Source: Clostridium sp. 12(A)
GTDB taxonomy: Bacteria > Bacillota > Clostridia > Lachnospirales > Lachnospiraceae
Direction of reading: 5' to 3'
DNA length: 64,000 nt
Assembly: GCA_000526575.1 (NCBI GenBank)
Contig: JAGI01000003.1
Span: forward strand, 124,001-188,000
Part shown: positions 3,321-12,275 of the stretch, piece by piece
Numbering within the stretch: the stretch's first letter is position 1
Layout: every line of letters starts with the position of its first letter
Position numbers and translations under genes: made by a program
Notes under the pieces: generated by a model
Told to the model about the DNA's origin: nothing
Database searches by the model: none
Seen by the model: only the letters and a program-made list of their open reading frames with translations

Positions 3321-5033
3321 TTAGAATGATAAATTATTCTTTAGCATGATACTTAATTCATCATTATTATTTAATAACTCCTCATACCTTCCGCTATCGG
3401 TGACAGTTCCATGTTTTAATATAATGACCTGATCTACTTTACTGAGTATTTCTTGCCTGTGAGTAATGATAACCACTGTTTTATCTTTTAACCTGGTATG
3501 CAGTAACCCGTTGATCTGGTGTTCTGAATAAACATCAGTATTGGAAGTGACTTCATCAAATAAAATAATAGGTCTGGCATGAATAAGGGCTCTGGCAAGG
3601 GCTATCTTCTGCTTCTGCCCGCCGGAAAGCATTGAGCCATTTTGTCCCACCATATAATCCAGAGATACCTCTTTTAGAAAATCATCTAACCCGCTGTCTC
3701 TGCACGCAATATTCACTTCTTCATCGCTGACTGTTCTATAAAGGCATATATTATTTTTGATGGTATCGTTAAAAAGATAAATCTGCTGGCTTACAATGGA
3801 TACCATGCTTCTATATTCCTGCAATGATATTTTAGAAATATCTGTTCCATTCAATAGGATTCTGCCGTCCGCCGGATCGTATAGCCTGGTAAGCAGATTT
3901 ATAATGGTTGATTTTCCTGAGCCATTTCTGCCGATTAAGGCAGTTTTACTTCCCTTTGGAAATTTCATATTAACGTCTTTAAGAAGAGGCTTTTCTGCTC
4001 CATAGGAAAATGTTATGTTTTCTAATTCCAAATCCCCATATGCTGCTTCTGCAAATGACCCATGATCACTCTCTTCCTTCAAATCCATAAACTCATAAAA
4101 CCTTTTTGTAGACGGTATGATTCCTGAAAGTAAATACCCGATGTTTAATATAGCCGTTATAGGTCCTGTTACGTAAGAGCTGTATGTAATAAAGGCGAAA
4201 ACACTTCCAACCGTCAACTGCAGATCAAACACCAGGTTAGCCCCTACGACATAGATTACCGTCGATAACAAATGAACCATGATAGAATCCGTAATGATAT
4301 TCCATCGGCTGAGCATATTCAATTGTCTTTGTTTCTCTATAATGCGTCTCTGGCGAACGGAAAATTCATCATACTTTTCATTGTATATGTTAAATAACTT
4401 AACTTCATTAATCCCACCTACGGTATCACCAAACCAATTCGCATAAATCTGGTTGCTTATTATAAATTCCTCCACAATCGATTTTTGCTTTTTAGCAAAA
4501 TTCTTCATAACAATAAATTTAACTGGTATAAATATAAGTACCAGAATGGTCATTCTATCATCTATGATGAAAAGACCAACGATGCCTCCCATCATATTAA
4601 ATGCTTGTGTAACAACAAAAAAGACACTTTCATCTGCAATCATGACCATTTTATTGATATCTGCATAAATATTATTTAGTAACTCCGCGTAGTTGGTCCG
4701 ATTAAAACAGCCTGCTTCCATTTTCATCAAATGAGAAAATGACTGTTCCGAAAGGGAATACTGTAATTTGGCGGATATATGGATCCTTTTTCTTTCTTTT
4801 ATGATATCAATCAAAGAGATTACTCCGTAGATTGCCATTAACATAATAGATAATTGAATCAATAAACTTTTATTTCCACCAATAAAACCAGCATCCATAA
4901 TCTGCCTGTTGATTAATGGGATACATAAACTGAGTCCGGTAGAAATCAACAGGCAGCCGATAATCACTGCTATGGTTTTATTATACTTCTTTAAAAGATG
5001 AAGCAATTTTCTTACTGCCTGGCGGTTACTCAT
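3321..5033 (-). CDS. ABC exporter (fused permease and ATPase) of the peptide cluster
   Basis: A 570-residue half-transporter with a six-helix membrane domain (about residues 15-310) followed by an ATPase domain. The Walker A is GRNGSGKST, the signature is LSGGQKQKIALARAL, the Walker B is PIILFDEVTSNTD and the switch His is in VVIITHRQE. This layout fits an exporter working as a homodimer in the membrane. It has no N-terminal C39 peptidase domain, so it would not cut a double-glycine leader itself. The ATG at 5033 lies five bases after the stop of the acyl-carrier-like gene and has only a weak ribosome site, suggesting translational coupling. An earlier TTG at 5090 would overlap that gene. It is the last gene of the peptide operon, so export of the mature Cys-rich peptide is the likely role. 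Confidence 0.85.
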   Translation of the reverse strand: MSNRQAVRKLLHLLKKYNKTIAVIIGCLLISTGLSLCIPLINRQIMDAGFIGGNKSLLIQLSIMLMAIYGVISLIDIIKERKRIHISAKLQYSLSEQSFSHLMKMEAGCFNRTNYAELLNNIYADINKMVMIADESVFFVVTQAFNMMGGIVGLFIIDDRMTILVLIFIPVKFIVMKNFAKKQKSIVEEFIISNQIYANWFGDTVGGINEVKLFNIYNEKYDEFSVRQRRIIEKQRQLNMLSRWNIITDSIMVHLLSTVIYVVGANLVFDLQLTVGSVFAFITYSSYVTGPITAILNIGYLLSGIIPSTKRFYEFMDLKEESDHGSFAEAAYGDLELENITFSYGAEKPLLKDVNMKFPKGSKTALIGRNGSGKSTIINLLTRLYDPADGRILLNGTDISKISLQEYRSMVSIVSQQIYLFNDTIKNNICLYRTVSDEEVNIACRDSGLDDFLKEVSLDYMVGQNGSMLSGGQKQKIALARALIHARPIILFDEVTSNTDVYSEHQINGLLHTRLKDKTVVIITHRQEILSKVDQVIILKHGTVTDSGRYEELLNNNDELSIMLKNNLSF

Positions 5034-5038
5034 TGTTT

Positions 5039-5287
5039 TTAACCAATCAACCTTTCTTCTATTTCCTTTACAAATCCATTGAATGTACAAAAATCCGGAT
5101 TCATCAATGTCTTTTCGTCAAAAACAATATTCTTTTCTCCTTCAATCTCATAGATCAATTCGATAAAATTCCTTGCAAATAAACCTACACCAGGGCTGAA
5201 AAAGTTTGTATCGTATTGGCTTTCTGTTAAGTGCACTGAAAATTTTTCAGCTAGTTTGTTTAACACACTCTCTTTAATCCCGTTCAT
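5039..5287 (-). CDS. Acyl-carrier-related protein of a peptide maturation system
   Basis: An 82-residue protein resembling the small acyl-carrier-related proteins encoded beside Cys-rich peptide radical SAM maturases in clostridia (the TIGR04069 type, recognised from memory). The start at MNGIKESVL is chosen because GGAGG lies eight bases upstream; the ATG five codons earlier is part of that ribosome site. The fold pattern is helical, with GLFARNFIELIYEIE standing where a true carrier has its DSL-containing helix. The serine that would carry phosphopantetheine is replaced, so it probably cannot be loaded in the normal way and may act as a docking or scaffold protein. It sits between the TIGR04066-like gene (15 bases upstream) and the exporter. 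Confidence 0.7.
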   Translation of the reverse strand: MNGIKESVLNKLAEKFSVHLTESQYDTNFFSPGVGLFARNFIELIYEIEGEKNIVFDEKTLMNPDFCTFNGFVKEIEERLIG

Positions 5288-5302
5288 ATAATAGACCTCC
5301 AT

Positions 5303-6376
5303 CTAATTTGACAAATAGTTGATTATTTCATCAATCGCACTCGTAAAAGCTTCCTCATTATTCAGATTAAATACATCCTTTTTATCTAAGCTTTGTATTT
5401 TTTCCTCTACCTTGTTCTGATTGATATAAACTAATCGTTCTTTATCAAATGTTTCACCTCCATATATATCATGAAAAATATTTGATAAATGAAAGCTTCG
5501 TACAGGATACTCATATCTAAATTTCAGATAATTTTTAGTAAAATCCCAGAATGATTCATCATAATCATTATAGGATAAGGAAAGCAGTGTAACATCCACA
5601 ATGATAGAATTTGATACCAAATAATTGATAATACCAAATCCATTGGGATGATCCGCATCATATTGCATGGCTCCTCCCGGGACACCAATGATGATTATTT
5701 CCGGCTCCTCTGTGTTTTCAATTTGTTTTATATAGGAATTGAAACGGTATACTTTTTCAATATCCGGTATATTATCAAACATAAACTCTGGAAAATTATG
5801 CATACCAAAAAAGCTGCTGTATTCCTTACTTCCTATTTGAGAAACACAATACCCTCTATTTAAAAATTCCTTCCTCGCCTTAAGCTGTAATTCAAACTTA
5901 TTTGTATATTCTGCTATTCCACAAACAAGAAGTATGGGCGCATTAATTTTATGTAAACGATTTTCCTTTAATTCAGGATATATTTCATGAGAAATGCAGT
6001 AGTTTTTATAAGTAGTCCCCTTTTCCTTACATTTTTGAATCAATGGTTCCTCCACTTCACTTTCCATTTCACATAAACAAATGATGTTTTTCGCTTGTTC
6101 TATGGAGTATATCATTTTCTCATACACAGCTTCAGAAAATTCTGTAAAAATAATATCAGTTGCCGATTTTATACTCTCATTAATATTTGCCGTTACCTCA
6201 ATCCCCAGTGGATTCTCCTTTATTAATTCCCCAACATCCCTGTCTTCGATTCCTTGTCCTGCCAATGCCACCGGAATAATCGTTTCATAATCGTTTAACA
6301 TATCTCTATATTTTATTATTTCCACATACTCCTTTTTTATTGGATAAATAACAGCTATTTTACCATTCTCTTTCAT
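5303..6376 (-). CDS. Peptide maturation system protein (TIGR04066-like)
   Basis: A 357-residue soluble protein, start MKENGKIAVIYPIKK. Its ATG overlaps the maturase stop codon by one base (TAATG), with GAGGAGG upstream. It resembles the conserved partner of CcpM-type radical SAM enzymes in clostridial peptide clusters (the TIGR04066 type, from memory). Two Rossmann-like halves can be seen: an N-terminal half with KIAVIYPI and EVEEPLIQKC, and a C-terminal half beginning at PILLVCGIAEYTNKFELQ, a possible nucleotide-binding motif, followed by EIIIIGVPGGAM. The precise activity is unknown. The tight operon position makes a role in modifying or handling the peptide likely. It could be an NTP-dependent enzyme or a binding partner. 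Confidence 0.72.
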   Translation of the reverse strand: MKENGKIAVIYPIKKEYVEIIKYRDMLNDYETIIPVALAGQGIEDRDVGELIKENPLGIEVTANINESIKSATDIIFTEFSEAVYEKMIYSIEQAKNIICLCEMESEVEEPLIQKCKEKGTTYKNYCISHEIYPELKENRLHKINAPILLVCGIAEYTNKFELQLKARKEFLNRGYCVSQIGSKEYSSFFGMHNFPEFMFDNIPDIEKVYRFNSYIKQIENTEEPEIIIIGVPGGAMQYDADHPNGFGIINYLVSNSIIVDVTLLSLSYNDYDESFWDFTKNYLKFRYEYPVRSFHLSNIFHDIYGGETFDKERLVYINQNKVEEKIQSLDKKDVFNLNNEEAFTSAIDEIINYLSN

Positions 6377-7833
6377 TAAATGTCCTCCTCGAAATGATAG
6401 CCACTTTTTGCTAATACGCAAATATTCTTAAAGGTATCTATAATCGTATCTTGTAAATTACCGCAATGGTCTAACCTGTTCTTTGCACAAAGCTCTCCTC
6501 CATTATCCGCTTGAACAAAACATAACTTGCAATGAGCAATCGCCCAACAGCTCTTACATTTTTCTTCCGTTATCTTTCCAACATTTAAAAGCTTTTTGCA
6601 TTGATCTAATGATAAGCCTTCCTCTATATTACCAATCACAGAACATGGAGAGGTCTCATCAATCCTCTCACAAGGATAAAAATTCCCGTCTATATTCATA
6701 AACAGTTTTTTCCTGCCAGGAACGCAAGGACCTGATGGGTGAAAAACCTTAGGTATCCCCGTAAAATCTTGCAGCTGCTTTGCGGTCCTAATCACTTCAT
6801 TAAAACTATTTAACTGTATCCTTGTTGGAAGAGCTTTTACTCTCTTCATCTTATGTAAAAAGCACTTATATTTTTCAAATTCCATATGCTGCCTGAACTT
6901 GTCAGCCTGTTTATCAAACGCTTTTTCATCACTTAAATAATTTGTACTGTAAAAGGTAGTATTTACTTTGCTGAACTCAAACAGAGAGTCTTCTGTAAAA
7001 AACAAATCGATATCGATTACCCCATCATCTTGGGCACTTACGGAATTAAACGAGACATTTTGATTAAAATACTCTAGATACTTTTCTTTAAAATAACACA
7101 GTTTTTCGTATATGAGTTCAAAACTACCTGTACCATTGGCAGTAACACGGGATTTATCATGAATATTTTTTGGTCCATCTAAACTTATTGTTAACAAAAT
7201 CTCATTATCTGAAAAGAATTTCATTATTTCATCTGTGAGCAACACACCATTTGTTGTCAAATTAAATACTACTTTTTTTGATATAAATTTTTCCCTTGCA
7301 TATTTAACACATCTTTTTATTAATTCAAACTCCAATAATGGCTCACCTCCATAAAAAGCAACATTTACTACATCACAATTCATGGAATGATTGTAAAGGA
7401 AGTCTATTCCCTTTTTTGCCAATTCAAAACTCATTCTTTTATTAGAGTGCTTCCTGTTATTATAGTAATTTCCTGTATAGGGGCAATAATCACATCTTAG
7501 ATTACAATTTTGAGTCACTTGTAAGTTAATACTCTCTATGTTCGCATCCAGTACATCTTCCAAAAGTTCAGTCATAGGATGTTGAAGCTTTTCAATACTG
7601 AACTTTTTAAAAAGACCTTGTTTCAAACTCTCTTTATAAAATTCTTTGAATTCAATATCATCTACGCTTTCTGCTTTTTCAAAAAAATTTGTCGTTTCTT
7701 TGCTGAATTTATATAAATATTCAAAGCAATTTTTACTTATTCTTTTAATCTTATTTGCATATGTATCAAACATAAAAAAATCTTGGTTGCTTATTTGGAA
7801 CAGTTGATACATAGGTTTTATCTGCTCATTCAT
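6376..7833 (-). CDS. ccpM: Radical SAM/SPASM Cys-rich peptide maturase
   Basis: A 485-residue radical SAM enzyme. Residues 1-100 look like an N-terminal peptide-recognition region, followed by the cluster motif C110-NLR-C114-DY-C117 and the SAM-binding stretch VAFYGGEPLLEF. A Cys-rich SPASM region follows (PCVPGRKKLFMNIDGNFYPC, then CKSCWAIAHCKLCF and a last Cys in LDHCGN) for auxiliary iron-sulfur clusters. Such enzymes install thioether or other crosslinks on Cys-rich precursor peptides; the resemblance is to the CcpM type. The ATG at 7833 has a GGGGG ribosome site. The substrate is most likely the 46-residue peptide encoded 225 bases upstream. The reaction product cannot be read from sequence. 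Confidence 0.88.
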   Translation of the reverse strand: MNEQIKPMYQLFQISNQDFFMFDTYANKIKRISKNCFEYLYKFSKETTNFFEKAESVDDIEFKEFYKESLKQGLFKKFSIEKLQHPMTELLEDVLDANIESINLQVTQNCNLRCDYCPYTGNYYNNRKHSNKRMSFELAKKGIDFLYNHSMNCDVVNVAFYGGEPLLEFELIKRCVKYAREKFISKKVVFNLTTNGVLLTDEIMKFFSDNEILLTISLDGPKNIHDKSRVTANGTGSFELIYEKLCYFKEKYLEYFNQNVSFNSVSAQDDGVIDIDLFFTEDSLFEFSKVNTTFYSTNYLSDEKAFDKQADKFRQHMEFEKYKCFLHKMKRVKALPTRIQLNSFNEVIRTAKQLQDFTGIPKVFHPSGPCVPGRKKLFMNIDGNFYPCERIDETSPCSVIGNIEEGLSLDQCKKLLNVGKITEEKCKSCWAIAHCKLCFVQADNGGELCAKNRLDHCGNLQDTIIDTFKNICVLAKSGYHFEEDI

Positions 7834-7936
7834 GATTCTGCCCCCTCTTATAATCGATCATAATATATCCACATTTATTTTATAGAATCCTCGGAAGTTT
7901 CAAATTGCATACTATTTTAGATTTATACGTTCACTT

Positions 7937-7955
7937 TTTACCTATTAGGGGTAAA
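7937..7955. repeat. Inverted repeat upstream of the maturase gene
   Basis: TTTACC and GGTAAA flank a 7-base spacer, about 105 bases upstream of the maturase start. It could be an operator or a small RNA hairpin in the precursor-maturase interval. Nothing identifies the regulator. Confidence 0.3.
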
Positions 7956-7980
7956 TAGATAACATACTCATATGATAAGC

Positions 7981-8007
7981 AGGGAGCTAACCTTATGATC
8001 AGCCCCC
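7981..8007 (-). other. Stem-loop after the precursor gene
   Basis: On the minus strand GGGGGCT and AGCTCCC pair, with two G-U wobbles, around a 12-base loop. The structure lies 51 bases beyond the precursor stop and has no T-tract. Such structures in peptide operons often cap the abundant precursor mRNA while letting some transcripts run into the maturase gene. Confidence 0.35.
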
Positions 8008-8057
8008 ACTTTTTTGGTGATAATGAAAACATCTTTAATTTTCTCATAAGCCAAAGC

Positions 8058-8198
8058 CTAGAGGATAAAGATATAATGTACTACCTGGTATGATGTACCG
8101 TATTCGTAAGCAACGCTACAGCTACATGGGCATGAACAATTTCCCATTACATAACCTCTGGTTCCGGTTGAAGCTTTTTTCATAAGCGGTTTTTTCAT
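8058..8198 (-). CDS. Cys-rich precursor peptide, 46 residues
   Basis: A small gene with an excellent ribosome site (TAGGAGGTG, seven bases before ATG). The product starts MKKPLMKKASTGTRGY, a short basic leader, followed by a cysteine cluster GNCSCPCSCS with four Cys at alternating or near-alternating positions, then a tyrosine-rich tail (YEYGTSYQ) and a hydrophobic end. It resembles the CLI_3235/Clo7bot class of clostridial Cys-rich peptides whose genes adjoin CcpM maturases, though the exact family is from memory. It lies between agrD and the maturase, in the same direction. Thioether or other radical SAM crosslinks on the Cys cluster, followed by leader removal and export, are the likely fate. 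No double-glycine cleavage site is obvious. Confidence 0.8.
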   Translation of the reverse strand: MKKPLMKKASTGTRGYVMGNCSCPCSCSVAYEYGTSYQVVHYIFIL

Positions 8199-8224
8199 AT
8201 TTACACCTCCTATCTTCATTTATA

Positions 8225-8267
8225 TTTATAAGTAATACTAATACTTTGAACACTCTATATGTATTAG
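8225..8267 (-). promoter_or_regulatory. Candidate precursor promoter with inverted repeat
   Basis: A minus-strand TATAAA (8225-8230) lies 27 bases upstream of the precursor ATG. At the usual -35 distance there is no good hexamer. Instead the inverted repeat CTAATAC...GTATTAG (8238-8244 and 8261-8267) spans that region, as expected for an activator-dependent promoter. It could equally be a hairpin ending the agrBD message. Confidence 0.4.
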
Positions 8268-8285
8268 CTGCTTATACGCATTCAC

Positions 8286-8429
8286 CTATTTCCTTTTTGG
8301 TCTTTTCGGTTGATGATAGATGCCCATACAATGGGGCGGCCAGCTATAGAGATTTTCAGTAATCTCTTTTCGGGCGATCTTCTCCACTACGTTTAAAACC
8401 TTCTTTTCCAATGTTTCCTTTTTCTTCAT
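8286..8429 (-). CDS. agrD: AgrD-type cyclic lactone autoinducer precursor
   Basis: A 47-residue peptide starting MKKKETLEKKVLNVV, with AGGAGGT nine bases upstream. It has the three parts of an AgrD: a positively charged amphipathic helix for membrane binding, a short central signal region (SWPPHCMGIY) and a C-terminal tail HQPKRPKRK that matches the clostridial H-Q-P-K-x-P recognition tail removed by AgrB. The signal ring should be a thiolactone between C34 and the carboxyl of Y38 (CMGIY), with an exocyclic tail ending in WPPH. The start codon overlaps the agrB stop (ATGA), so the two are translationally coupled. The exact N-terminal cut cannot be seen. Confidence 0.92.
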   Translation of the reverse strand: MKKKETLEKKVLNVVEKIARKEITENLYSWPPHCMGIYHQPKRPKRK

Positions 8430-9010
8430 ATTGTTCTTACCTCCTGTTTTATCATTTTTGCCAGGCATAATAAAAATGCACATAAGATAATAGCTATTGA
8501 CATATAACCTATATACACACTTTCAATCCTTAGGAATATAAATGATACAATGACCATGGCTTCTAACAAGACCACTAATCTGGCTGCTTTTTTAGACTCC
8601 TGCAGCTCATGAACATCCATATCCATATTAGGATGATTCACCGTTCCAATTACCTCAATTAAAATAACAGAGCAGAGCAATAGTCCATACATTATGATTG
8701 GTTTTTCAGAAAGCATTTTTGTAATTTCTATCACAGCAATGAACGTTACAGCCGTGCCAAGGTAGCACTTCCAGAACTTATCTGCATGATATCCTCCTGT
8801 CCGTTTTCTCAGCGACAAGAAGAAACATAAAAAACAAACGGTAGGAAGAATTTGACCATAAGCCATACCTAAAAGCAACAATGTAATAACAGTTATGTAA
8901 CGCTCTATTATGGTGATGACTGCATACTCATAATATTCTTCGTCAGTAGCATTTATAAGACATTCTTCTTTCAATCGTCCAACGATCCTTATTGCTATTT
9001 TTTCAACCAT
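8426..9010 (-). CDS. agrB: AgrB-type autoinducer processing endopeptidase
   Basis: A 194-residue integral membrane protein with several hydrophobic segments and a cytoplasmic catalytic motif RKRTGGYHADKFWKCYL. H75 and C82 are the expected catalytic pair of the AgrB family. It cleaves the C-terminal tail of AgrD and forms the thiolactone. The start MVEKIAIRIVGRL is chosen because AGGAGGT stands about ten bases upstream; a longer frame to 9118 has no ribosome site. A TTGTTT-16-TATAAT promoter (9035-9062) lies directly upstream, separate from agrCA. Confidence 0.92.
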   Translation of the reverse strand: MVEKIAIRIVGRLKEECLINATDEEYYEYAVITIIERYITVITLLLLGMAYGQILPTVCFLCFFLSLRKRTGGYHADKFWKCYLGTAVTFIAVIEITKMLSEKPIIMYGLLLCSVILIEVIGTVNHPNMDMDVHELQESKKAARLVVLLEAMVIVSFIFLRIESVYIGYMSIAIILCAFLLCLAKMIKQEVRTI

Positions 9011-9034
9011 ATCAAATGTACCTCCTAATTCTGC

Positions 9035-9062
9035 ATTATAGAATAATTCATAGTTTAAACAA
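9035..9062 (-). promoter_or_regulatory. Promoter of agrBD
   Basis: On the minus strand TTGTTT (9057-9062) and TATAAT (9035-9040) are 16 bases apart, just upstream of the agrB ribosome site. Two GGACA elements (plus strand, 9080-9084 and 9101-9105) lie 21 bp apart upstream of the -35. That spacing suits a LytTR regulator such as AgrA binding direct repeats. Confidence 0.55.
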
Positions 9063-9105
9063 GTAGGTTTGCAGATACCGGACACTGGAAAGCAGAAAAT
9101 GGACA

Positions 9106-9151
9106 AAAAGAGGGGCATCCTATTATACGACTTATAGAATGCCCCTCTTTT
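9106..9151 (-). terminator. Terminator between agrC and agrB
   Basis: AAAAGAGGGGCAT and ATGCCCCTCTTTT form a 13-bp stem followed by T residues on the minus strand. The stem includes the end of agrC itself (stop at 9132). It separates the agrA-agrC message from agrBD and the peptide genes. Confidence 0.75.
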
Positions 9152-10457
9152 GCCCTAATGGTATTACAATGGAAAAGAGAAACTCTCTTTCCAATTCTTG
9201 TATCACATAAGAACCTCCATATTTTTCTATGGTCCTTACAATATTTTTAATTCCTACCCCATGTTCCCCTTCCTCTGATATTTTTGTGGATTTTATTTCA
9301 CCATCTTTATAATGAATGATATGATTAAATGAATTCTTTACTGCAATAATAATGTGATCACTCTCTTTTATAAATTTAAGTCTAATAATTCTCTTTCCAC
9401 TACATTTATTACATGCTTCAATAGCATTATTTAAAAGATTGGATAAAATAATCACGATATCTTCATCTCTGATGCCTACTTCTGCAAGGTTGTTTACCCG
9501 GAACACAAAAACAATCTTCTTTTCAGTCATTTCCTGATATTTGGTATTTAATACAGCGTTTATAATGACATGATTGGTGTTAATCAGATCAAGCTCTTTA
9601 TTCAGATCACCATTAATATTTTTCACATACTTTTTCAATTCATCGTATTGCTTTTTCGCTAACAGCGATTCAATACACATAATTTGATTCTTAAATTCAT
9701 GTGTTTTCCTTTTTTGACTTTCAAATTTTTCGGAGATAGAGCGATACATATTAACCTGGTTTTTCACCTGCATTTGATTGATCCTGTTATCATTGATCTT
9801 GATTTCCCTGTCAACAATATCATTGATTAAATAAAAAACAACCATATTCATGCCAGCTGTACCAACCGCATGAACAAATAAAACATTTGCCTGCCTTTTT
9901 GTCTCCACATAATTAAAAGAGGATAACAGGGATGAAATTATTATAATCGTAAATACTGGAAAAAATAAAAATCTTAGCCATTCTGTATCTTTCAGCATAT
10001 CTGTATCCTTATGGCTGAATTTCTTTCTAATAATTAGAATACATAAAAATAGTATTACTTTTCCAAGCAAAGTTACCAGATAACCTTCTAATCCATGATA
10101 TTCCATTATCTCATGATTACTGGAAAAAAATCGGCTATTTACAGAAAATGCAATAAAATCTGACATTAACATGAGCCCATCATATAAAATTGCCAATACG
10201 AAAGACTTATTATAACTTATGTTTGTATGCCAATACATGACTCCTGAAATTACAATGATATTTATGAGTTGCCTGACGATAAAATGATTGGCTAGCAGCT
10301 CTGCAAAGCAAAATCCACATAGACATAAAAAAAGCAATTGTATGCAGTTTAGACATTTTTTATCCTTGTACCTTTTCCTTCCAAAGGATTCATAAAAAAC
10401 ATTGCAGCAAAATACCTCGAAAATAATGATTAGTAAATTATCAAGATAAGAATTCAT
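9132..10457 (-). CDS. agrC: AgrC-like sensor histidine kinase (GHKL family)
   Basis: A 441-residue kinase. Residues 1-220 form about six hydrophobic segments, as in receptors for cyclic peptides. The cytoplasmic half has the phosphoacceptor H253 in RKTHEFKNQI, an N-box SNLLNNAIEAC and a G-box HGVGIKNIVRTI typical of GHKL kinases. It should sense the AgrD-derived thiolactone and phosphorylate the adjacent regulator. The start ATG follows the regulator's stop directly (10458/10457), so the two are co-translated in the order agrA, agrC. Ligand specificity cannot be read. Confidence 0.88.
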   Translation of the reverse strand: MNSYLDNLLIIIFEVFCCNVFYESFGRKRYKDKKCLNCIQLLFLCLCGFCFAELLANHFIVRQLINIIVISGVMYWHTNISYNKSFVLAILYDGLMLMSDFIAFSVNSRFFSSNHEIMEYHGLEGYLVTLLGKVILFLCILIIRKKFSHKDTDMLKDTEWLRFLFFPVFTIIIISSLLSSFNYVETKRQANVLFVHAVGTAGMNMVVFYLINDIVDREIKINDNRINQMQVKNQVNMYRSISEKFESQKRKTHEFKNQIMCIESLLAKKQYDELKKYVKNINGDLNKELDLINTNHVIINAVLNTKYQEMTEKKIVFVFRVNNLAEVGIRDEDIVIILSNLLNNAIEACNKCSGKRIIRLKFIKESDHIIIAVKNSFNHIIHYKDGEIKSTKISEEGEHGVGIKNIVRTIEKYGGSYVIQELEREFLFSIVIPLGQKRGIL

Positions 10458-11183
10458 CTATATCTCTCCCTGATACGCAATAAATGAATCTTTCACTTGT
10501 TTATAACGTGCCTTTGGTATGATTAACTCAATCCCATTGCTCAATATGGTCTTATATCGAAATACTTCATTCATGTATTTTAAATTCACAAGAAAGCTTT
10601 GATGAATTCTTAAAAAATTGTACCCCCTTAGCTCCCGTTCCAAATCATTCAATGTTTCATACATCGTGTAAATTTTCAATTTTTGTTCCATAATGTGAAA
10701 TTCCAGCTTATGTAATTTACTTTCTATGTATAAAAGCCGGTCTAAGGAAATTTCCCTTTTCGACTCATTAAAATCAAAAACCTTTTTTATAACTGTATAG
10801 TTCATCTTATCGATAACAGCTTCCATGCATTCACTTATGGTGCTTTTAAAATTATTACTATCCTTTAATAAATAACGTATGGCATCTACTTTATATCCTT
10901 CCAGCGTGTAGTCTACATAGGCTGTCACAAAAACAATAAATATCTCTTTACTTATGGTTCGTATTGCCTTAGCTGCTGTAACGCCATCCATCTTATTCAT
11001 ATTAACATCAAGGAATACAATGGTATACTTGACCATTTCAATTCCAAGCGCGATAAAATCTTCGCCAGAAGCAAAGGTATCTATTTGAAAAATCAATCCT
11101 TTGTTCCTCATATAATCTGATATAATCCCTTTTAATTCCTGTCTGAAATAATATTCATCATCACATATAGCAATTCGAAACAT
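10458..11183 (-). CDS. agrA: AgrA-like LytTR response regulator
   Basis: A 241-residue regulator. The receiver domain starts MFRIAICDDE with the acidic pair D8-D9 and the phosphoacceptor D59 in VFLDVNMNKMDG; it ends near residue 125. The C-terminal LytTR DNA-binding domain includes LLYIESKLHKLEFH and LRIHQSFLVNLKYM. It should activate agrBD and probably the peptide operon when phosphorylated by AgrC. A GGGGGG-containing ribosome site precedes the ATG. It is the first gene of the agr-peptide island. Upstream, two AAGGCTC elements occur 50 bp apart on the minus strand, of unknown meaning. Confidence 0.88.
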   Translation of the reverse strand: MFRIAICDDEYYFRQELKGIISDYMRNKGLIFQIDTFASGEDFIALGIEMVKYTIVFLDVNMNKMDGVTAAKAIRTISKEIFIVFVTAYVDYTLEGYKVDAIRYLLKDSNNFKSTISECMEAVIDKMNYTVIKKVFDFNESKREISLDRLLYIESKLHKLEFHIMEQKLKIYTMYETLNDLERELRGYNFLRIHQSFLVNLKYMNEVFRYKTILSNGIELIIPKARYKQVKDSFIAYQGEI

Positions 11184-11389
11184 ACGTTTACCCCCCTAAA
11201 GTTCACATATTTTTCTTTTGACCGACTAATCTTTATATATTCGAGCCTTCTTAATTGCAATATAAAGGCCCTAATTTCATAGATACAAATCAGAGCCTTT
11301 TGATATAATATTATCATAACATTATTTAATTAGCAAACATTACATATGACTATCTAACCATTAAAACCGGGGCTGGAAAACACCTCCTC

Positions 11390-11962
11390 TTAGTTCTTCT
11401 TTCTCAGCTTTAGTCCATCGCGGTAAGCATCACCTACCTTCTCACCAACGGACAAGTATGACTTATTCATCCAATCGAAAGTGATCGGATGGAATTTTTC
11501 AAATGATACCTTGCCATCGTCTCCAAGAATCCGTTCATCCATACTTACATTGACGATTTCGCCAACCAGTCTCCAGGTTTCCTCATCATAGCTCTTCACT
11601 CTGCATTCAACGGCAAAAGGAAGCTCATCGATAATTGGTGCATCTACGAATTCGGACTTTGTTGTATGGAATCCGGACTTTTCAAATTTATCTCCCACTT
11701 TATTCCCTGGTGTTATACCAAGGTAATCACAGGCAGCTTCATTTTCCACATCCGCCATACTTACAACAAAGGAACCTCTGGAAAGAATTCCTTTTAACGT
11801 ATTTCTCTGGGAGGCTACGGTAATCGTAATTTCTGTCTCATTGGTGATTCCGCCCCATACCGCTAACATGGCGGTGGGCTTTTCAACCCCATCATAAGAT
11901 GAAATTATTAAAACCGGCATGGGTGTGATGTATGGCTTTGCTCCGATATTTATTCTAGACAT
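11390..11962 (-). CDS. Flavin reductase-like (FMN-binding split-barrel) protein
   Basis: A 190-residue protein of the flavin reductase-like family. The start MSRINIGAKPYITPMPVLII is supported by AAGGAG upstream. The core KPTAMLAVWGGITNETEITIT, the stretch RGSFVVSM, then ACDYLGITPGNKVGDKFEKSGF follows the family pattern for FMN binding. In clostridia such proteins are often called flavoredoxins and pass electrons between flavin and small partners. The frame is open upstream to 12070, but that extension looks like a remnant of another gene. It is divergent to the AraC regulator at 12276, which may control it. Confidence 0.82.
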   Translation of the reverse strand: MSRINIGAKPYITPMPVLIISSYDGVEKPTAMLAVWGGITNETEITITVASQRNTLKGILSRGSFVVSMADVENEAACDYLGITPGNKVGDKFEKSGFHTTKSEFVDAPIIDELPFAVECRVKSYDEETWRLVGEIVNVSMDERILGDDGKVSFEKFHPITFDWMNKSYLSVGEKVGDAYRDGLKLRKKN

Positions 11963-11968
11963 ATTTAT

Positions 11969-12097
11969 TCTCCTTAAATTTTGTAATAAATCACAGTTAT
12001 CCAATGCTCTAATAAAATCTTTTCCGGATGTCGGGTTCTCCACTCCCATTGCTTTTGCCATTCTGATCATCTATTCTTCTGCAGCCTTACGTTCTGC
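11969..12097 (-). pseudogene. Possible gene relic upstream of the flavin reductase
   Basis: In the flavin reductase frame, the codons before its start read MIRMAKAMGVENPTSGKDF then IRALDNCDLLQNL. Before that, across one TAG, they read AERKAAEE. The stretch resembles the C-terminal helical part of an iron-containing alcohol dehydrogenase, with an internal stop and no ribosome site. It may be what remains of a deleted gene. The match is from memory and short. Confidence 0.3.
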
Positions 12098-12275
12098 AAA
12101 AAAAAATCATTATTTGCTCTTACTTCCTTATTGCTTCCAATTTAAACTTTCTTGTTACTAACCCATCATATAGATTTTCACCCTCCAAATCAGCGCTAAA
12201 TATTAACTTGAATTATGGCTTATTTTAACCTATAATCGGATTTAAGCATGTCTATTTGAAGAAAGGAACGTTGTT

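Follow-up and report, generated by a model that had tools for sequence, protein, structure and literature searches.

Several described systems share features with the locus analysed here. In Roseburia intestinalis L1-82, a five-gene peptide cluster of the CcpM/CLI_3235 class is described, in the portion of the report available to us, without agr genes (PMC4573289), and in Clostridium acetobutylicum the LanM-like protein CA_C0082 is encoded next to agr, is controlled by agr and can be induced by the autoinducing peptide, according to the accessible part of the source (PMC10301443). Genome surveys, as far as the excerpts at hand extend, count cyclic-lactone-autoinducer and ranthipeptide clusters separately in Lacrimispora (PMC11316579), record cyclic lactone autoinducers and ranthipeptide genes in a gut Lachnospiraceae strain (PMC11352710) and cover both classes in rumen isolates (PMC13289728). 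Here we describe a 64,000-nucleotide stretch of Clostridium sp. 12(A) (contig JAGI01000003.1, positions 124,001 to 188,000; henceforth the window), in which nine minus-strand genes at 3321–11183 run in the order agrA-agrC-agrB-agrD-precursor-radical S-adenosylmethionine (SAM) maturase-TIGR04066 protein-carrier-ATP-binding cassette (ABC) exporter. With a probability of roughly 0.78, we consider this locus to be a self-contained quorum-sensing circuit that would switch on agrBD and the modified-peptide genes as cell density rises; from the arrangement and its recurrence in relatives we strongly infer density-dependent production of the peptide. An earlier note on this DNA had stated that no agr-controlled peptide of this class was known to it, and we likewise found neither such a peptide nor the operator sequence or AgrD lineage in the literature searched, which comprised partial texts and few subscription papers.

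The evidence centres on the gap between agrC and agrB. An intrinsic terminator identified by folding (9106–9151, minus strand, like all window features below; 18-pair stem, 10-nt loop, U-rich tail, −27.2 kcal/mol, z −7.7) closes agrAC, and its tail leads directly into a tandem direct repeat, TGTCCATTTTCTGC-N7-TGTCCGGTATCTGC, with a period of 21 (9071–9105), which we propose as the AgrA operator. Using a weight matrix built from the repeats of agrC–agrB gaps, this site scored 31.8 bits and was the single window site of at least 14 bits among the matches listed. Eight nucleotides past it lies the weak −35 element of a sigma-A-like promoter, TTGTTT-N16-TATAAT (9035–9062), whose −10 element equals the consensus and which precedes agrB. 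LytTR activators recognize 9-bp repeats mostly 12 bp apart and 8–10 bp above the −35 (PMC6193735), and the binding site of AgrA is a pair of direct repeats immediately upstream of P2 and P3 (PMC4227749), in the parts of these papers that we could consult. Tested against this format (two direct repeats of ∼9 bp, 11–13 bp apart and ∼10 bp upstream of the −35), the operator of the window and its relatives conformed, with a period of 20–21 and 8 nt from CTGC to the −35.

This terminator and operator-promoter, together with an RNA hairpin found by folding between precursor and maturase (7977–8011; −20.5 kcal/mol, z −4.4, without a T-run behind it), indicate that agrAC is one transcription unit, as read from the sequence, and that agrB, agrD and the precursor gene most likely share the operator-promoter, the maturase genes most likely being reached by read-through. 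The hairpin may protect the end of the precursor mRNA or act as a partial attenuator that lowers read-through into the maturase gene. It might also favour the precursor message over the enzyme message.

Alignment of the agrC–agrB gaps of relatives revealed a conserved tandem repeat with the core CRTTTTCTGC and a period of 20–21, present in 45 of 69 gaps by a simple seed, and 3.02 Mb of reversed sequence yielded no site of at least 16 bits and two of at least 14 bits among the matches listed. In the agr lineage whose AgrD is of the QPKRPK type, the operator precedes agrB, often agrA, and radical SAM peptide cassettes as well. The first gene behind the 191 sites of at least 22 bits in named loci was agrB in 48 cases, agrA in 20 and another gene in 104, with none found in 13; a labelled cassette gene or a small Cys-rich open reading frame (ORF) came first behind six of the 191 sites. 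The 104 other genes include heads of peptide cassettes and, as judged by eye, proteins with signal-peptide-like starts. A promoter stands at one fixed offset from 142 of 177 distinct operator sites, compared with 1.4% for random positions. The operator was present within 3 kb upstream of the maturase gene in 32 of 36 agr-linked cases and in none of 48 unlinked ones (Fisher 4e-19, on raw counts with relatedness ignored), linked maturases below 400 bits (L058, L243) being excluded; with eight duplicate genes dropped by hand, the linked figure was 24 of 28. The 48 unlinked maturases include that of a further cassette in a strain of the same species (L025) and that of a cassette in a congener (L027). 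Twenty-five of 35 linked maturases (19 of 28 once duplicates are removed) possess a site other than an agrA or agrB promoter, that is, one outside the set on which the motif was trained; the operator of the window cassette is the agrB promoter site alone. The operator-promoter and the contrast between linked and unlinked maturases support, as an inference, the earlier proposal that agr switches on the peptide genes.

A plain pattern search of the family sample (at most one mismatch, period 20) gave a similar picture, with 41 hits in 19 of 397 genomes (one in the control), 25 of which fall in seven of the 14 genomes that have a QPKRPK AgrD; the pattern thus occurs in 7/14 QPKRPK genomes versus 12/383 others (Fisher 5e-7). 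The genome of the window is missing from these hits because its site has a period of 21. When up to three mismatches were allowed, the window site was the best in its own genome (two mismatches), followed by 11 others with three (control, 6). Since no match there is as good as that of the window, the peptide operon may be the sole operator target in this genome.

Several observations weigh against such a circuit. The operator of the window has an imperfect second half-site (GGTATCTGC), no operator was found there ahead of agrA, and the significant hairpin at 7977–8011 separates precursor from maturase, so that the maturase genes are perhaps partly uncoupled; the hairpin lowered our confidence slightly, from 0.80 to 0.78. 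In relatives, four linked maturase genes have no operator, two of them with less than 1.8 kb of upstream sequence, and the deep-branching agr-linked cluster of genome G111 (L058, again as L243) has no site of at least 16 bits among the matches listed. Where relatives have no cassette, the operator precedes genes with signal-peptide-like starts (by eye), and the peptide is therefore not the sole output there. Finally, agr and cassette need not go together: AgrB is missing within 10 kb of 59 of the 73 TIGR04066 clusters, and of the 29 well-flanked agr loci of the lineage 16 are without the cassette. The earlier note had named independent occurrence of agr and peptide genes as evidence that would count against it, and these two figures document it in both directions, yet the operator follows the coupling, and independent occurrence therefore reads as modular coupling.

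The signal-peptide-like genes and the DUF6033 genes behind the operators of relatives would also fit an agr system that mainly controls other secreted products, the peptide genes of the window having a promoter of their own in the 87-nt gap between agrD and precursor, or behind the hairpin in the 224-nt gap between precursor and maturase. Neither gap contains a minus-strand promoter-like match in a scan that is a weak test, since it misses the agrB promoter and the agrC terminator; real sequence gave it fewer matches than shuffles did, and its only minus-strand terminator candidate 3′ of agrB lies inside the ABC gene. Folding revealed no significant hairpin in the agrD–precursor gap, and no operator match elsewhere in the genome equals that of the window. 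A separate promoter for the peptide genes is on these grounds unlikely, and we retain the shared agr-dependent operator-promoter.

The profiles of the individual genes bear on a second alternative. All four agr proteins, which the earlier note had recognized, score above curated cut-offs: AgrA (10458–11183, 241 aa), a response regulator with REC (PF00072, 54.1 bits, cut-off 30.2) and LytTR DNA-binding (PF04397, 55.7 bits, cut-off 22.6) domains; AgrC (9132–10457, 441 aa), a membrane sensor kinase with a GHKL ATPase domain (PF14501, 88.1 bits, cut-off 22); AgrB (8426–9010, 194 aa), a homologue of the AgrD protease/cyclase (PF04647, 118 bits, cut-off 23); and the signal precursor AgrD (8286–8429, 47 aa; TIGR04223, 28.4 bits, cut-off 19), which ends in SWPPH-CMGIY/HQPKRPKRK, the slash marking the inferred cleavage place, and whose gene overlaps agrB by 4 bp. 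The Cys-rich peptide precursor (8058–8198, 46 aa, ending in NCSCPCSCSVAYEYGTSYQVVHYIFIL) matched no family model, TIGR04065 included; TIGR04065 exceeded its cut-off in four of five other precursors tested, the fifth being a lachnocin. The radical SAM/SPASM peptide maturase (6376–7833, 485 aa, with CNLRCDYC) is CcpM-like, scoring 482 bits with TIGR04068, under the curated cut-off of 500. It also stayed under the cut-offs of the SCIFF ranthipeptide model TIGR03974 (141 bits, cut-off 425) and of the lachnocin maturase model NF038170 (247 bits, cut-off 550, a distant match). Among solved structures, 5wgg comes nearest to it in sequence (E 1e-33); we take 5wgg to be the SCIFF thioether enzyme CteB. 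The TIGR04066 peptide maturation protein (5303–6373, 356 aa; 283 bits, cut-off 200) has a predicted two-domain fold (predicted local distance difference test score 89.9) like that of DUF1611 proteins and DgcN, and Lys159, invariant in the family, lies in a stretch that we liken to a P-loop. Its gene adjoins that of the acyl-carrier-related protein (5039–5287, 82 aa), which scores 30 bits with TIGR04069, under the cut-off of 70 (E 5e-7). The ABC exporter (3321–5033) has membrane and ATPase domains and, in the Pfam scan, no peptidase domain.

Because maturase and carrier fall under the cut-offs and the precursor belongs to no family, the cassette, judged by these profiles, is a divergent relative of the CcpM/CLI_3235 system and no filed member of it. 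All the parts that the note had named are where it placed them on the minus strand, as nine consecutive genes and not the ten it had counted. The sole candidate noticed for a tenth is a doubtful 38-aa ORF (7931–8047) that overlaps the hairpin, has no convincing ribosome site and, among the cluster loci compared, recurs only in the same-species genome (L024).

The family scan found no subtilase among the nine genes, and at 17 of 21 named agr-linked loci a subtilase (Pfam S8) adjoins the cassette. With an exporter that has no peptidase domain, a second task of AgrB might be to cleave the leader off the modified peptide, which would make the link biosynthetic and not regulatory. Those same 17 loci, however, hold agr and subtilase together, so agr is no substitute for a subtilase, and the operator evidence points to regulation. 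AgrB is not known to act on unrelated leaders, and such a double role is very unlikely; regulation of the peptide genes by agr remains our preferred explanation.

A further alternative is coincidence: the agr operon and the peptide cluster might be neighbours by accident and be regulated separately. TIGR04066 was found in 5 of 25 genus genomes (own and same-species genome included), in 30 of 397 genomes of the family sample and in 21 of 391 of the class sample. AgrB lies within 10 kb of 14 of the 73 clusters counted (12 of 71 when the own genome's two are set aside), compared with 1.1 expected by random placement at the genome-wide density of AgrB, the loci not being independent. Eleven of the 38 clusters in the own family are linked, as are none of the 21 in family f29 and three of the 14 elsewhere; seven weak TIGR04066 rows, four weak or split AgrB rows and three clusters of the same-species genome G023 were left out of the count. 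Five of the 14 are loose, with agr on the other strand or kilobases between (G019, G128, G472, G486, G798); the tighter ones are the two of the own genome and those of G004, G053, G111, G168, G292, G300 and G306, the last having agrA and agrC ahead of the maturase and agrB divergent. The 59 clusters without AgrB and the five loose ones speak for coincidence. Set against them are the excess of 14 over 1.1, an operator found at linked cassettes only and a second agr-peptide cluster, of another lineage, in the same genome, which make coincidence hardly credible. In G306 (L066, 808–6209), agrA, agrA and agrC stand directly upstream of another radical SAM maturase and the divergent agrB belongs to a different branch; this is perhaps a third independent agr-maturase coupling.

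The coupling that we favour involves one agr lineage. An [HY]QPKRPK end is common to the AgrDs at six of the linked loci (the window, G300, G168, G292, G053 and G111) and differs from the HQPExPExxKxLRKF-like ends that occur among other agr copies of these genomes, in a comparison by motif listing that misses AgrDs of other shape. The AgrBs of the QPKRPK-type linked loci form one clade (98/96) among 56 AgrBs. As a DNA pattern, the motif occurs in 14 of 397 family genomes (control, 4), seven of which have TIGR04066 clusters, agrB standing beside the motif in the other seven. When named genomes were searched with the alignment of AgrBs, 68 loci were found, many from metagenome bins, including Roseburia faecis, Roseburia inulinivorans, Eubacterium plexicaudatum ASF492, Petralouisia muris, Clostridium brassicae and Lachnospiraceae bacteria A4 and 3-1, among others; at least eight are the same places as G-numbered loci, and a few are near copies. 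Locus L198, from E. plexicaudatum ASF492, contains linked cassettes that have operators. Sixty-two of the 68 have a QPxRP AgrD, 21 have maturase and TIGR04066, and three more have a cassette-type subtilase and exporter with no maturase in the stretch examined. The well-flanked loci mentioned above are the 29 motif loci with at least 7 kb on both sides, of which 13 are linked. We give least credence to a scheme in which AgrC senses the radical SAM peptide and AgrD is a relic or supplies a second signal, as AgrD is intact, QPxRP is kept across the lineage while the peptides differ, and more than half of the well-flanked loci have no peptide cassette.

The agr-linked maturases are scattered over several branches of the maturase tree. 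On the agr tree, drawn without two near copies and without AgrBs below 170 residues, linkage changes at least seven times, although it is clustered beyond what random labelling gives (only 2 of 500 shuffles were as low). Two loci, L194 and L197, were labelled as linked on the strength of their subtilase and exporter, the stretch examined having no maturase. Since the linked maturases belong to several branches, one agr lineage is, on these phylogenies, repeatedly paired with different peptide cassettes. The data thus point beyond an isolated oddity to a lineage of quorum-sensing modules that share a recognizable operator. Somewhat better than even, in our estimation, are the odds for a broader view in which this Lachnospiraceae agr sub-lineage is a portable quorum module, coupled repeatedly by operator gain, in which operator copies mark co-made peptides and some genomes, this one included, hold two orthogonal agr-peptide circuits with different operators.

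Other genes accompany the operators of this lineage. QPKRPK-type agr loci without a cassette (L182, L183, L201, L203 and L212), several with operators before signal-peptide-like genes, suggest a wider regulon where the cassette is lacking. Proteins of 226–270 aa behind operators head peptide cassettes in L180 (11129–11941), L184 (6092–6829) and L208 (18209–18889); two of the three operator-preceded cassette-head proteins tested match DUF6033 (PF19498), and these proteins may be co-produced effectors. Operators also stand ∼60 nt before a conserved minus-strand gene (MDL.I..L..S......LHELG.T.VSDL) repeatedly found beside agr, in L180, L187, L196, L198, L206, L208, L211, L212 and L217.

The second agr-peptide cluster of the genome, which carries seven AgrB genes in 4.6 Mb, lies at 3868–12131 of locus L023 (G000:C2:1612000-1628000) and reads agrA-agrC-agrB-agrD-ABC-precursor-maturase-TIGR04066-like protein, the last with a subtilase N-terminus (Pfam subtilase 42.8, cut-off 21.8; TIGR04066 50, under the cut-off of 200). 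Its precursor is a lachnocin (99.5 bits, cut-off 40), and in the AgrB tree its agr belongs to another lineage than that of the window. Upstream of its agrB, at 9932–9961, is a different tandem repeat, ACCATTCGG-N12-ACCACTGAG. Repeats of the ACCATTCGG type with a period of 21 precede agrB in the congeners L028 (13984) and L098 (2096), with one mismatch each and three in L023, and precede the ABC gene in L029 (16804). With 44 matches at up to four mismatches in the 3.02-Mb reversed control, rarity argues less for the L023 repeat than do its position and conservation, and we regard repeats of this type as a possible orthogonal operator. The congener cluster L029 (G019:C9:3000-21000) is of the lachnocin type; an ORF of 1010 aa separates its maturase from the TIGR04066-like fusion and is encoded on the opposite strand, and directly upstream of the cluster no agrB was found.

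Taken together, the features of the window suggest the following sequence of events. By analogy with the agr family, at high cell density the cyclic AgrD product would activate AgrC, and, as in the agr and LytTR families, phosphorylated AgrA would bind the operator at 9071–9105. The resulting transcript would carry agrBD, providing positive feedback, and the precursor gene, followed by the genes for maturase, TIGR04066 protein, carrier and exporter behind a hairpin that may cut their share. The maturase would add Cys-based thioether links to the precursor and the ABC protein would export the product, whose role is most likely antibacterial or in signalling between cells. Extra operator copies would allow this agr lineage to reach separate cassettes in relatives.

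Many gut Lachnospiraceae carry radical SAM peptide cassettes and multiple agr copies, and we know of no purpose for most of either. The operator would supply a sequence rule predicting which peptides fall under quorum control, adding a synthetic cyclic peptide would be expected to activate clusters not expressed under ordinary culture conditions, and the role of agr in commensal gut bacteria becomes a simple reporter question.

Among described systems, the lachnocins (NF038169/NF038170) match the second agr cluster of this genome, the window maturase being distant from theirs and its agr lineage and repeat different. In the Streptococcus mutans HdrR/BrsR bacteriocin promoters, LytTR-type direct repeats lie upstream of the −35 as they do here, but HdrR and BrsR are held by membrane inhibitors and not governed by a cyclic peptide and AgrC, in the part of the source consulted (PMC6193735). 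CA_C0082 resembles the window in that a gene like one for an enzyme of ribosomally synthesized and post-translationally modified peptides stands directly beside agr; it differs, in what is accessible of its description, in that the LanM-like protein is without catalytic residues, other lanthipeptide genes are missing, and the gene is located after agrCA and has its role in granulose formation (PMC10301443). With the CcpM/CLI_3235 system (TIGR04065/66/68/69) the window shares the company of radical SAM maturase, TIGR04066 protein, carrier and exporter, and departs from it in a maturase and a carrier under the cut-offs, an unmatched precursor, the lack of a subtilase and the attached agr genes. 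Staphylococcal and clostridial agr, for their part, have the same four proteins, a LytTR regulator and direct repeats upstream of the agrB promoter, whereas the window adds a peptide-modification cassette after agrBD on the same strand, a CRTTTTCTGC-like half-site and an AgrD with a QPKRPK end.

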